Numbered from the stretch's first letter, positions 9,043 through 13,879 are shown. The stretch is DNA of 64,000 nucleotides from Catenulisporales bacterium (GCA_019510485.1 JAEKKI010000128.1:1-64000), one strand, 5' to 3'. The notes: generated by a model from the sequence alone, not told the origin. Numbers and translations: made by a program.

Positions 9043-9585
9043 ATGAAACGGTTCGTCCTCACAGGGACCCCGGGTGCGGGTAAGACCACGGTCATCGACG
9101 CACTGCGGCAGCTCGGGCAGGCGGCGGTCGGCGAGGCCGCGACCGATGTGATCGACCGGGAGCAGGCCGCGGGGAATCCGGAGCCGTGGCGCGACGCGGG
9201 GTTCGTCGATGCCGTGGTCGCGGTGCAGCGGGAACGGGAGGCTGAGGCTTCCTCGCACGGTGCCGGGGTGTGTTTCTTCGACCGCTCGCCGGTGTGCACG
9301 CTGGCGTTGAGCCGCTTTCTGGGACGACCGACGAGTCCGGCGCTGGCCGCCGAGATCGATCGGATCCAGCGCGCTCAGACCTATCAGCGCACGGTGTTCT
9401 TCCTGGCGAACCTCGGTTTCATCGTGCCCTCGGCGGCGCGGCGGATCAGCTTCGAGGACGCGCTGGTGTTCGAGCGCGTGCATCGTGAGACGTATGGGGA
9501 GCTGGGATATCAGCTCCTCGACGTGGCGGTCGCGACGCCGGGGGAGCGGGCGGAGGCGATCTTGGAGATGGTGGCGGATCGCTAA
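9043..9585 (+). CDS. P-loop NTPase (AAA_28-like)
   Basis: 180 residues. The Walker A motif GTPGAGKTT lies at residues 8-16, followed by a predicted Asp-Arg-Ser motif (FFDRSPVCT) in the Walker B/lid region, as in small nucleotide-kinase-like ATPases. The protein is the size of a single kinase-like domain. The substrate is unknown; relatives are annotated as ATPases or predicted kinases. It diverges from the regulator/membrane-protein operon and its stop overlaps the stop of the convergent methyltransferase gene. Confidence 0.75.
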   Translation: MKRFVLTGTPGAGKTTVIDALRQLGQAAVGEAATDVIDREQAAGNPEPWRDAGFVDAVVAVQREREAEASSHGAGVCFFDRSPVCTLALSRFLGRPTSPALAAEIDRIQRAQTYQRTVFFLANLGFIVPSAARRISFEDALVFERVHRETYGELGYQLLDVAVATPGERAEAILEMVADR

Positions 9586-10952
9586 TCGCGGGCCGCGGGC
9601 CAGTCCACCGCGAGCCGGACGTGGTTCTTGACCACGACCAGGTCGGCCTGTGGCGGCGGCGCGTCGATCGGCCAGGCGCTGATGATCGGCGGTGGGCCGA
9701 AGCGGTGGTCGCGGTTCCAGGCGGCGGTCAGGGTGACCAGGCCGGCGGCCAGGGACTCGGCGTCGGGGCCGAAGGCATGGACACCGAGTTCGATGCGGCC
9801 GTCGGGACGGGGGCGGGCGGTCAGGTGGGCGAAGGCTGATTCGGTGGCGACGGCCGGGGTGCCCGAGCCCAGCGCCGGTTCCAGTGGTTCGGCTCCCGGG
9901 GCGTCCGGTGGTCCGGGAACGGCGGGTGCACCGGGGATGTGGACGGTGAGCTGGCAGTAGCCGGGGAAGGACGTGGCCAGCCACAGCGGCAGGGTGTCCC
10001 ATGGCTCCCAGCGCCAGACGTGGACATCGGACCAGCGTTCGACGCGCGGGGTGCGCAGCAGCTCCTCGATGCGCTTCTCGCCGGGGAGCGCGTGGACGTC
10101 GTCGGCTTCGAGCGAGAGATCGCCGCCGTTGAGGATGAGCTCTTCATCGGCGTGGTGGCCCGCGCCCCGCATCTTCACGAAGCCGCACATGCGCGCCGAG
10201 CGGCTGACGAGGTGGTCGATGCCGTCGCGACCGTCTCGGCCGCCGACCCGGTCGAAGGCGACCGAGCGGGTCAGGCCGCGCAGCCGCAGCGGCACGACGA
10301 GGCGGCCGTGCGGCGTGAGCTCCTGTGCCCAGGCCGGCGGCAGGTCCCACGCCTCGACGGTCACCACGATGCGGTCGTACGGCGCGTGGGCCGGCACCCC
10401 GCTCTCGGCGTCGGCGGTGAGCACGCGCACCTCGCGGTAGCCGGCGTCGTCGAGGCACGCCCGGGCGCGCGCGGCGACGTCGGCGTCGATATCGACGGTG
10501 GTCACCTCGCCGCCGGGCCCGGCGAGCTCGGCCATCAGCGCCGCGTTGTAGCCGCCGGAGCCGATCTCCAACAGCCGCATGCCGGGCTCGATCGCGGCCT
10601 GCTCCAGCATGATCGCCTGGATGTCCGGCGCGCTCACCGAGCTGGTCGGCACCCCGCTCCGGTCGCGTTTCACGAACACCACCTGGTTCGCGTACGCCAG
10701 CTCCAGCGGCAGCCCCGGCGCGAACCGGTGGCGCGGCACGGCCCGGAACGCCGCCGCGACCCGCGGCGTGGCGATCGCTCCTTCGGCGATGAGGCGGTCG
10801 GTCAGGGCGGCGCGAAGGCTCGGAGCTCGGCGGTCTTCGGGGGTGGCCGGCCGCCTTCGCCCAGCGGGCTGCGGTCCGGTGTCCGGAGATTCTCTTGTGC
10901 CGTCCGCGCGTGCGGCCTCGCGGCCGTCCTCGCCCGGACCCGCCGTCGCCAC
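9582..10952 (-). CDS. FxLD-type protein-L-isoaspartate methyltransferase-like enzyme
   Basis: 456 residues: an Arg/Pro-rich linker, a PCMT-like SAM domain (motif I LLEIGSGGYNAALMAEL, then Val-Asp-Ile-Asp and Tyr-Asp-Arg-Ile-Val-Val-Thr-Val) and a long C-terminal extension of about 200 residues not found in the DNA-repair-type PIMT. This layout is that of the 'methyltransferase, FxLD system' group, normally encoded with lanthipeptide-like precursors and dehydratases. GTG at 10952 is preferred to GTG at 10961 because AGGAGGTG then sits at normal distance. It is the last gene of a tight three-gene operon (MFS, unknown, methyltransferase). No precursor or dehydratase gene is visible, so the substrate is open. 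Confidence 0.82.
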   Translation of the reverse strand: MATAGPGEDGREAARADGTRESPDTGPQPAGRRRPATPEDRRAPSLRAALTDRLIAEGAIATPRVAAAFRAVPRHRFAPGLPLELAYANQVVFVKRDRSGVPTSSVSAPDIQAIMLEQAAIEPGMRLLEIGSGGYNAALMAELAGPGGEVTTVDIDADVAARARACLDDAGYREVRVLTADAESGVPAHAPYDRIVVTVEAWDLPPAWAQELTPHGRLVVPLRLRGLTRSVAFDRVGGRDGRDGIDHLVSRSARMCGFVKMRGAGHHADEELILNGGDLSLEADDVHALPGEKRIEELLRTPRVERWSDVHVWRWEPWDTLPLWLATSFPGYCQLTVHIPGAPAVPGPPDAPGAEPLEPALGSGTPAVATESAFAHLTARPRPDGRIELGVHAFGPDAESLAAGLVTLTAAWNRDHRFGPPPIISAWPIDAPPPQADLVVVKNHVRLAVDWPAARD

Positions 10953-10976
10953 CTGCGCCACCTCCTCGTCCCCGTC

Positions 10977-11567
10977 TCATGGTTCTTCCCCCGCGGAATA
11001 CAGCGAGTAAGCCTTTTCATAACTGGTTCCCTCCTCCGGGTGCGGTGGCAGCGCCGGGTGCGGCGCCCGGCCGCCGTGGACGACCGTGCGTATCGCCCCG
11101 CGGCTGAGCGGCTGGGCGAAGCGGTCGCGCAGCAGCCAGCCGCGCACCGTGGACTGGTGGCCGTCGGCGGTGTGGCAGGGGTCGCGGCAGCTGCGCAGCA
11201 CGATGCCGACCGGCTCGCCGGTGAGCGCGCCGAGCAGCAGCAGCGCGCCGAAGGTGGTGCCGGCGCCCGCGCGGTCGGTCAGGCACCGGCGGCCGCGGCG
11301 GGACATCGCCAGGTCCGCGGCCAGGCCGGCTTCGCCGTCGTCGCCCCGGGCCAGGCAGGTGAGCAGGTGCTCGCCGTCGTCCGCCGCGCGGGTCAGGCGG
11401 TCGATCACGTCCTCGGCCAGCCGGCGCGCGGTCTCGATGGCGGCCAGCGGGTCGGCCGCCACCTCGGCCGCGTGCCAGATCGCCCGGCCGGTTCGGCGGC
11501 GGACCCGGTCGGCGTTCTTGATCCACAGGTTCCGGGACGGGGTCCGGGAGGCGGCGTCGGCGGTCAT
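10977..11567 (-). CDS. Unknown 196-residue protein in the methyltransferase operon
   Basis: I do not recognise this protein. It has a basic N-terminal half (Lys-Asn-Ala-Asp-Arg-Val-Arg-Arg-Arg), a helical acidic middle, a short hydrophobic stretch TFGALLLLGALTG near residue 110, Cys residues (CRDPC) near residue 130, and a Pro/His-rich, Tyr-containing tail ending SYEKAYSLYSAGEEP. The ATG at 11567 lies 2 bases after the stop of the MFS gene, and its stop is 24 bases before the methyltransferase start, so all three are one transcription unit. It could be a substrate, a partner or an adaptor of the methyltransferase; that is inference from position only. Confidence 0.65.
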   Translation of the reverse strand: MTADAASRTPSRNLWIKNADRVRRRTGRAIWHAAEVAADPLAAIETARRLAEDVIDRLTRAADDGEHLLTCLARGDDGEAGLAADLAMSRRGRRCLTDRAGAGTTFGALLLLGALTGEPVGIVLRSCRDPCHTADGHQSTVRGWLLRDRFAQPLSRGAIRTVVHGGRAPHPALPPHPEEGTSYEKAYSLYSAGEEP

Positions 11568-11569
11568 GG

Positions 11570-12880
11570 TCAACCCCCTGGTGGTGCGGACGGTTCCGGT
11601 GCGATCGCTGTCTCGATCGACCTTTCGTCCACGGTAGTAGAGGGGTCTGACAAGTAAGGATCTTCCAGGTCGATCCGGCGGATAGCGGGCACCGCGAGCG
11701 TGGCGAGGTTCGTGGCGAACTGGAACACCGCGCCGAACGCCAGGAACGCCGTCAGCCCGAACACCGACGCCAGCGGCCCGGCCGCCGCCAGCCCGATCGG
11801 CCCCAGAGCGAAGGCGCCGAGCATTTGGTAGGCCGTGATGCGGCCCAGTACGTCGGCCGGCAGCCGCTGCTGGATCACCGTGTTCTCCAACGCCGTGCCG
11901 ATCGCGCCGCCGGCCCCGGTGATGGCCGCCGCCGCGCATACCCAGGGCAGCGGTAGGTCGCTGGCCAGCAGCGCCGGCGTCAGGGCGTAACCGAACGCCG
12001 CCACGACGGACAGCAGCAGTGGTCGGCGTGGCCGCCGCCCGAGCAGTGCCAGGCCGCCGAGGACCGAGCCCGCGCCGTTTGCGGCGAGCACCAGGCCCCA
12101 GGCGCCGGCGCCGCCGAGCCGTCGTTCGGCGACCACCGGTCCCAGTACTAGGTACGGGGCCCAAACCAGGGCGTTGAACAGGCAGAACTGGAGCGTGGAG
12201 ACCCAGAGCCAGGAGCGTGAGCTGAACTGCTGCCAGCCGTCTCGCAGCTCCCTGATGAGGGACGGGGATTCGCCCGGCTGCGGTTGCGGCACGTGCGCCA
12301 GGCGGATCAGGACTATGACGCTGACGGCGTAGCTTGCGGCGTCGATGAGCAGCACGGCGGCCGGGCCCGCGGCCCCGGAAGCCCCGGACAGTGACGCCGC
12401 GACCAGGCCGCCGAGCGCCGGACCGGCGACTGCGGTGCCGGACACGGCGATGCTGAGCAGGGCGTTGGCGTCGCTGAGGTGGTCGGTGGGGAGCAGCTTC
12501 GGGATCAGGGCTTGGAGTGAGGGGGTGAAGACGCCTTCGCCGATGCCGGAGAGCACTGCGGTGACGATCATGGCGGCGAGGGAGGCGCGGCCGGTGAGCA
12601 GCAGGAGGGCGAAGGCGGCCTGGGCGGCGCAGCGCAGGACGTCGGAGGCGATCATGACTCTGCGGCCGCCGAGCCGGTCGGCGAATACGCCGCCGAGCAG
12701 GAGGAGCAGTACGACCGGCACGATTCGCGCGGCCATGACGTAGCCCAGGCCGGCGGGTCCGGCGCCGGTGTGGAGGACGGCGAAGGCGGTGGCGACCGGG
12801 GCCATGGCGGTGCCGAGCTTGGAGGTGAGGTAGCCGGTGAAGAACCAGCGGAAGTCTCGGTCGGCTAGGGCGGTGAACAT
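11570..12880 (-). CDS. MFS efflux transporter (enterobactin exporter-like)
   Basis: About 436 residues with 12 hydrophobic segments. The N-terminal FTALADRDFRWFFTG and the inter-helix loop with GGVFADRLGGRRVMIASD are typical of the DHA3-type drug/siderophore exporters of the major facilitator superfamily. ATG at 12880 is used; the frame remains open to a TTG at 12925, and no good ribosome-binding site distinguishes them. It is the first gene of the operon with the unknown protein and the FxLD-type methyltransferase, which suggests export of a modified small molecule or peptide. Confidence 0.85.
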   Translation of the reverse strand: MFTALADRDFRWFFTGYLTSKLGTAMAPVATAFAVLHTGAGPAGLGYVMAARIVPVVLLLLLGGVFADRLGGRRVMIASDVLRCAAQAAFALLLLTGRASLAAMIVTAVLSGIGEGVFTPSLQALIPKLLPTDHLSDANALLSIAVSGTAVAGPALGGLVAASLSGASGAAGPAAVLLIDAASYAVSVIVLIRLAHVPQPQPGESPSLIRELRDGWQQFSSRSWLWVSTLQFCLFNALVWAPYLVLGPVVAERRLGGAGAWGLVLAANGAGSVLGGLALLGRRPRRPLLLSVVAAFGYALTPALLASDLPLPWVCAAAAITGAGGAIGTALENTVIQQRLPADVLGRITAYQMLGAFALGPIGLAAAGPLASVFGLTAFLAFGAVFQFATNLATLAVPAIRRIDLEDPYLSDPSTTVDERSIETAIAPEPSAPPGG

Positions 12881-12983: not shown

Positions 12984-13067
12984 CCGCAGTAAACAACTGC
13001 GTCTCCGCGAGGTATTACACTTCTTCTGGCTTGGATTCTGGGGAGGTGGGGCGGATGTTTACTGCGG
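12984..13067 (+). repeat. 12-base inverted repeat flanking the recombinase leader
   Basis: CCGCAGTAAACA at 12984-12995 is perfectly repeated in inverse orientation as TGTTTACTGCGG at 13056-13067. The second arm starts inside the ATG start codon of the truncated recombinase. The 60 bases between are unusually AT-rich for this genome. The left arm also contains part of a smaller inverted repeat (CGCAG / CTGCG, 12985-13001). Confidence 0.8.
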
Positions 13068-13879
13068 CGGATTCGGATTTTGCGCCGCCGGTCGAGTACG
13101 CGGTGGCGGTCGACCGGTTCTTGGATTCGGCGGGGTTGAGCCCGGCTTCGCAGCGGGTGTACCGGATCGCGCTGACGACGTGGGCTTGGATGCTGGTCGA
13201 GCGCGAGTCGCCGGTGGGCGTGGCACGGCGGGGCGCGTCGGCGCCGGTGGTGCCGCTGGGGCTGGTGGACAGTGCGGACGCGCCGGCGCGGCTGGCGGCG
13301 GGGTTCGCGGCTCGGGAGGCGTCGGTGGGGGCGCGGACGGCGAATCGGGAGCTGGCGATTCTTCGCAGTGCGCTGTCGTGGTGGCGGTCTCAAGGCTGGA
13401 TCACGTCGGATCCGACGGCCGGCATCCGACGGCGTGCGGCGGAACCGGCGCCGGGTGCGGGGCCGCTGAGCGAGGAGCAGGTGCGTGCGGTGCTGCGGCT
13501 GCGCGCGCCGCTGCGGGAACAGGCGCTGTGGCACGCGGTGTATGACAGCGGCGGTGGGATCGAGCGGATTCTGGCGCTGGACGTTTCGGATCTGGATGCC
13601 GGCGGTCGGCGTACGCGTCCGGGGGTGCGGGGGCCCGCACTGCACTGGCGGCCGAGGACGGGGCAGTTGCTGGGGTTTTTGGCAGCGGGGCGGGCGACGG
13701 GGCCGTTGTTTTTGACGGACCGGCGGGCGCCGGCCGGTACGGCTGCGCGCGACCGGTGCCCGGTGACGGGGCGTGGGCGGTTGTCGTATCGGCGGGCTGC
13801 GGAGGTTTTCGCGGAAGCGACGCGGGGGTTGGATGGGGGTGGGCGGGGGTGGACATTGCGGCAGTTGCGGCGGGGGTGA
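13055..13879 (+). CDS. Truncated tyrosine recombinase-like protein, probably catalytically dead
   Basis: 274 residues. An N-terminal SAM-like core-binding domain (about 10-120) with a helical SQRVYRIALTTWAWML segment is followed by the start of the catalytic domain (PLSEEQVRAVLRLRAPLREQ). Family members carry Arg in the segment YxxxxRxxExLxL; here it reads YDSGGGIERILALDV, with Gly at the Arg position. The protein ends at TLRQLRRG, where the HxxR box would begin, so the catalytic His, second Arg and Tyr are absent. ATG at 13055 follows GGGAGGTGG. Strong third-position GC bias makes it a real coding frame. It is either a decaying integrase or a DNA-binding protein derived from one. Confidence 0.75.
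   Translation: MFTAADSDFAPPVEYAVAVDRFLDSAGLSPASQRVYRIALTTWAWMLVERESPVGVARRGASAPVVPLGLVDSADAPARLAAGFAAREASVGARTANRELAILRSALSWWRSQGWITSDPTAGIRRRAAEPAPGAGPLSEEQVRAVLRLRAPLREQALWHAVYDSGGGIERILALDVSDLDAGGRRTRPGVRGPALHWRPRTGQLLGFLAAGRATGPLFLTDRRAPAGTAARDRCPVTGRGRLSYRRAAEVFAEATRGLDGGGRGWTLRQLRRG

Follow-up and report, generated by a model that had tools for sequence, protein, structure and literature searches.

A Catenulispora operon with an FxLD-type methyltransferase, a predicted folded protein and an MFS transporter, and no visible precursor beside it

A three-gene operon on the minus strand of the 64,000-nucleotide stretch of Catenulisporales DNA analysed here (the window) is conserved across the genus Catenulispora and ends in an FxLD-type methyltransferase; in our preferred reading, to which we assign a probability of about 0.4, this enzyme would be a stand-alone peptide/protein L-aspartyl O-methyltransferase (PAMT) of the genus core that works with a folded partner and an MFS exporter on a substrate encoded elsewhere. 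FxLD-type/PAMT enzymes usually alter aspartate in peptide antibiotics. The genes (9582-12880) run in the order MFS transporter, 196-aa protein, methyltransferase, with gaps of 2 bases and, if the methyltransferase starts at GTG 10952, 24 bases, and the tight arrangement described in the first-pass annotation agrees with this in coordinates and both gaps. The features of the region are as follows.

9043-9585, convergent with the operon and facing it: AAA_28 protein
9582-10952, minus strand: FxLD-type (PAMT) methyltransferase, 456 aa from GTG 10952
10802-11020, minus strand: out-of-frame ORF of 72 codons from an embedded ATG at 11020, crossing the methyltransferase start
10977-11567, minus strand: 196-aa protein (ATG 11567), member of an unnamed actinobacterial domain family
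11030-11037, minus strand: Shine-Dalgarno-like GGAGGAGG within the 3' end of the 196-aa gene
11570-12880, minus strand: MFS transporter of the DHA/drug-efflux type, 436 aa (ATG 12880), first gene of the operon
12984-12994 and 13057-13067, divergent intergenic region: inverted repeat CCGCAGTAAAC ... GTTTACTGCGG
13055-13879, plus strand: conserved 274-aa protein, divergent from the MFS gene

The 196-aa gene and the methyltransferase are found in 10/10 sampled Catenulispora genomes, and the full trio together with the divergent gene in seven of them, the contig ending within the trio in the remaining three; in the named records the orthologous loci all belong to Catenulispora (C. rubra, C. pinisilvae, C. 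pinistramenti and two MAGs). The orthologues of the 196-aa protein are 63-81% identical to the window protein, those of the methyltransferase 68-79% and those of the MFS protein 73-80%, the MFS gene holding the same position wherever contigs are long enough. The three-gene set is syntenic across the sampled Catenulispora genomes, more than chance would give, and the loss of neighbourhood named in the first-pass annotation as a refuting case is not what we see. The dN/dS values (0.15-0.54 for the 196-aa gene, 0.19-0.46 for the methyltransferase) place the operon genes under purifying selection. The transporter is recognised by Pfam MFS_3 (122 bits) and MFS_1 (109 bits), and scores 190 bits against TIGR00900, under that model's cut-off. 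The genes flanking the MFS end (divergent gene, acyltransferase) are also conserved wherever contigs extend, which makes the region look like chromosomal core rather than a recent island; a plasmid search returned no match to the 196-aa protein. Confinement of the operon to Catenulispora within the collections searched is provisional, because these sample the class without covering it.

The methyltransferase consists of a variable, disordered N-tail, a PCMT core and an additional C-terminal domain. It scores 463 bits against TIGR04364 (curated cut-off 320) over model positions 2-394 of 394, and its AlphaFold model (pLDDT 88) superposes across residues 46-453 on 1dl5, a two-domain PIMT from Thermotoga (Z 28.2, 309 residues, rmsd 8.2 Å), the high rmsd probably reflecting domain orientation; the PCMT core and extra C-terminal domain of the FxLD system noted in the first-pass annotation are thus both confirmed. 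A PCMT core (PF01135, 119 bits) joined to a homologous C-terminal domain of >100 aa defines a PAMT, both domains here align to 1dl5, and the C-terminal domain is the hallmark of these enzymes (PMC10787088). Models for canonical PIMT all score below cut-off (TIGR00080, 95.5 of 159 bits; PRK00312/NF001453, 118.5 of 188; NF010549, 113 of 282), so the enzyme is not a canonical PIMT. A WXXXGXP motif has been reported in the enzymes of imiditide, lasso and graspetide systems; 10/10 operon enzymes carry a W-x6-G-x-(G/P)-P variant in its place, the lanthipeptide-linked enzymes being variable at this site. A tree of 44 FxLD-type enzymes groups those of the operon in a single clade (support 100/100) on a long stem (0.71), separate from the enzymes that lie beside FxLD precursors or are linked to lanthipeptides. 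The first GTG in the methyltransferase frame is at 10961; we prefer GTG 10952 because GAGGAGG lies ~8 nt upstream of it and this start recurs in most species. Further FxLD-type methyltransferases without a visible FxLD precursor occur at loci L096, L097, L099 and L100, those of L097 and L100 adjoining beta-glucosidase-like and transporter-like genes.

The 196-aa protein matches no Pfam or NCBIfam family in profile searches, in keeping with its earlier description as unassignable, and yet it belongs to a wider actinobacterial family: an independent profile built from Streptomyces proteins alone retrieves full-length proteins of the operon with E values from 1e-7 to 1e-12, and profile-profile comparison (hhalign) gives a probability of 97%. 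The profile search proposed for this protein therefore gave no named family but did place it among relatives, including a second Catenulispora paralogue. The Streptomyces relatives are ~300 aa long with an extra N-terminal region, are covered by no curated family and have no methyltransferase adjoining them; the gene (L088, L089, L091) lies between acyl-CoA/acetoacetyl-CoA synthetase-like and ptsI-like genes, names that we read from the sequences, with an rRNA operon nearby in one of the two loci tested (L088), the other contig stretch ending before that point. Most of the wider family likewise lacks a methyltransferase neighbour. Among the further FxLD-type loci inspected, no relative outside Catenulispora stands beside a methyltransferase, and class-wide searches, with a reduced first step that scored 8 candidates per genome, returned only other members of the family, for none of which an enzyme of this kind was seen as neighbour. 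On each of two Streptomyces-group contigs (G031:C1:3204-7158 and G008:C40:3223-7750), the domain is present in two additional copies ~4 kb apart.

The AlphaFold model of the 196-aa protein (pLDDT 81.8, pTM 0.81) predicts the element order aa-bbb-a-bbb-a, that is, two helices followed by two bbb-a units. Because of this model and the wider family, we take the protein to be a folded one and not a leader-core precursor; its N-terminus is variable and it has no leader/core layout. The model has no usable match among solved structures (Foldseek best E 0.18 against PDB and 0.004 against viral structures; VIA best Z 3.8, rmsd 4.0, 81 aligned). Several weak matches to an MHC-like fold were set aside, as they may reflect just the bbb-a repeat.

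No precursor, dehydratase or cyclase is seen beside the operon, in agreement with the first-pass annotation. TIGR04363, the FxLD precursor model, finds nothing near the operon in any genome of a 60-genome sample, in which such precursors do lie close to many FxLD-type enzymes, and nothing above cut-off in the window's own genome (assembly of 5.5 Mb, 77% complete). Three genomes that keep the operon (G000, G009 and G011, the latter two 99-100% complete) hold no TIGR04363 protein above cut-off; an FxLD precursor is therefore not the general substrate, and the proposal that one encoded elsewhere plays this part does not hold as a general account. The LanB dehydratase (PF04738) is absent near the operon in any genome and from G000 altogether, the window's own genome has no Lant_dehydr_N protein, G009 and G011 have only weak Lant_dehydr_N matches located away from the operon, and no dehydratase or cyclase is seen among the adjoining genes. 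A scan of 10 loci for small conserved ORFs left no precursor-sized candidate within several kb whose own product is conserved, and the locus shows no precursor of the pamtide/imiditide type, either a short peptide in which a conserved Asp lies close to Gly/Pro or a zinc ribbon with a central Asp. Where small-ORF matches did recur, most were alternative-frame readings that covered the 196-aa/methyltransferase junction or called genes or lay upstream of the transporter gene.

The matches at the junction led to an embedded start signal. Within the last 20 codons of the 196-aa gene, all 10 species carry GGAGGAGGGAACnnnnTATGAAAAGGC, which reads as a Shine-Dalgarno stretch, a variable spacer and ATG AAA AGG in a frame different from that of the 196-aa gene; the Shine-Dalgarno stretch is identical or nearly so in 10/10 loci, with one change in each of two species. 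Of 671 columns with an invariant residue in the four genes aligned, only 4 have an invariant codon ending in A or T. Three of the four, GGA, TAT and GAA, make up the Shine-Dalgarno stretch and the ATG; in these genes TAT accounts for 16% of Tyr codons and GGA for 7% of Gly codons. Across the five genes compared, the pattern GGAGG-N5-12-ATG is found at no other place (20 times in the window, counting both strands), and no such embedded ATG is present in the five relatives checked outside the operon. At the level of conservation the signal is real. What it would start is less constant: the ORF spans 59-159 codons across the 10 species, its stop is not conserved, and its Arg-rich product has no invariant Asp and is conserved only over MKRxxR(C/S), about 7 residues. 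Predicted RNA structure at the junction is no more stable than in shuffled sequences in four species (z -1.2 to +1.5). At this junction (window positions 10977-10952) both genes are read in the same frame in 10/10 species, one in-frame TGA separating them in 9/10, and a fusion of the two proteins by stop-codon readthrough is conceivable from this arrangement.

On the other side of the operon, the divergent 274-aa protein retains 77-81% identity in 6 other Catenulispora loci, always adjoins the MFS gene and has no Pfam or PDB match; it could be a regulator of the operon. By eye it resembles a truncated tyrosine recombinase without the catalytic tail. The inverted repeat CCGCAGTAAAC/GTTTACTGCGG in the intergenic region is kept in the 7 loci aligned, one arm being slightly changed in some, and each arm is single-copy in the window. 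A conserved block, TTTTCTGCG...TTGAGTCTCTTTGC, lies upstream of the MFS gene, and the repeat and the block are possibly a shared operator or promoters.

In the preferred reading, the operon enzyme would be a stand-alone PAMT that is not part of a lanthipeptide cluster. Known PAMTs methylate one Asp, with mass changes of +14, then -32, then +18 Da (PMC10787088), and by analogy with these relatives the operon enzyme would methylate one Asp side chain, giving an aspartimide and then mostly isoaspartate. The 196-aa protein would be its folded partner, most likely delivering the substrate or restricting access to it as an adaptor or regulator, and less likely being the substrate itself; the substrate would probably be a protein or peptide encoded elsewhere, and the MFS pump may export the product or a toxic compound. 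The RiPP-like operon proposed in the first-pass annotation stands to the extent that an FxLD/PAMT enzyme, an exporter-like MFS protein and an unassignable protein are conserved together in the genus; as a RiPP operon it is no more than a candidate.

The enzyme family, the two-domain architecture, the synteny, the purifying selection, the folded partner family and the lack of a conserved precursor are also compatible with an enzyme that methylates proteins in general, or with a small-molecule pathway. The operon enzyme might be the genus's general protein Asp/isoAsp methyltransferase, serving repair or proteome-wide signalling, with partners only loosely linked to it: in G000, G009 and G011 a PF01135 search finds no PCMT-family protein besides it, the other PCMT proteins of Catenulispora are mostly FxLD copies (several adjoining lanthipeptide genes), the genus seems to have no canonical PIMT, and the Thermotoga PIMT likewise has a C-terminal domain. 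The cut-offs of the PIMT equivalog models are nevertheless missed, a tight operon with a dedicated partner is unexpected for such an enzyme, and many bacteria manage without a PIMT (7/14 control genomes have none), and we consider this role rather unlikely. A methyltransferase acting on a metabolite that the pump exports would suit a drug-efflux type of MFS protein, but the enzyme has the C-terminal domain and the sequence of peptide-acting PAMTs, and no biosynthetic genes are recognised among those adjacent; we think a small-molecule export operon very unlikely.

Two further explanations would place the substrate at the locus or among short peptides. The 196-aa protein adjoins the enzyme and is conserved with it in all 10 genomes, and a PAMT beside a large protein has been described (PMC10787088). 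What has been proposed for PAMT-containing FHA-VWA clusters might apply here too, with one Asp of this folded protein turned into aspartimide/isoAsp. Asp98, in a predicted loop, does not vary within the operon clade and is missing from the methyltransferase-free relatives; it looks specific to the clade. The five invariant Asp residues of the orthologues are followed, however, by P, L/V, R, L and R and never by G, S, N, T or H, modified Asp being followed by G, T, N or D in lanthipeptides and by H in NmaA (PMC13001092). With no conserved permissive Asp, no precursor layout and a family mostly without methyltransferases, the 196-aa protein did not hold up as a precursor-like substrate, and we judge its being the target improbable. 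A missed short peptide, either unlinked or made from the out-of-frame ORF at ATG 11020, would be in line with the start signal kept in 10/10 loci and with pamtide precursors, which often go unannotated beside their PAMT (PMC13001092); the brief conserved stretch and variable stop of that ORF, its Arg-rich product without an invariant Asp, and the lack, over several kb, of any other conserved small ORF whose product is itself conserved make us give this little credence. A bolder form of the preferred reading, which we regard as a long shot, has the PAMT and its dedicated folded partner lying outside known RiPP classes and the embedded signal acting as a real start that sets the substrate or the level of the enzyme, as an overlapping gene or translational switch.

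Comparison with known systems sets the operon apart from each of them. Its enzyme is of the same NCBIfam equivalog family as that of the FxLD lanthipeptide clusters (TIGR04363 precursor, LanB, LanC, TIGR04364 methyltransferase), but the operon has no visible precursor, LanB or LanC and its enzyme forms a clade of its own. Like the pamtides and imiditides (PMC10787088, PMC13001092), it has a PAMT without other RiPP enzymes next to a small uncharacterised gene; that neighbour is, however, a 196-aa folded protein rather than a ~45-aa G/P/D-rich or zinc-ribbon precursor, and an MFS gene is added. As in the PAMT-FHA/VWA clusters (PMC10787088), the PAMT adjoins a large non-peptide protein that is a possible target, although the operon has three genes and no FHA or VWA-like protein is recognised among the adjacent ones. 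The Streptomyces family beside ptsI and the rRNA operon (L019-L033) shares with the 196-aa protein a homologous C-terminal domain. PMC10787088 reports pamtide, FHA-VWA and rSAM clusters, with 3,653 of 9,408 PAMT-like enzymes lacking an associated substrate, and the Catenulispora operon fits none of the contexts described there; we found no paper on this operon in the literature.

The operon gives one orphan PAMT a conserved partner and three genomes without a competing FxLD precursor, and the target of such an enzyme thereby becomes testable. The embedded start signal, with its conservation at synonymous sites, is a rare sequence-level hint that an overlapping gene or translational control may operate at a PAMT locus.
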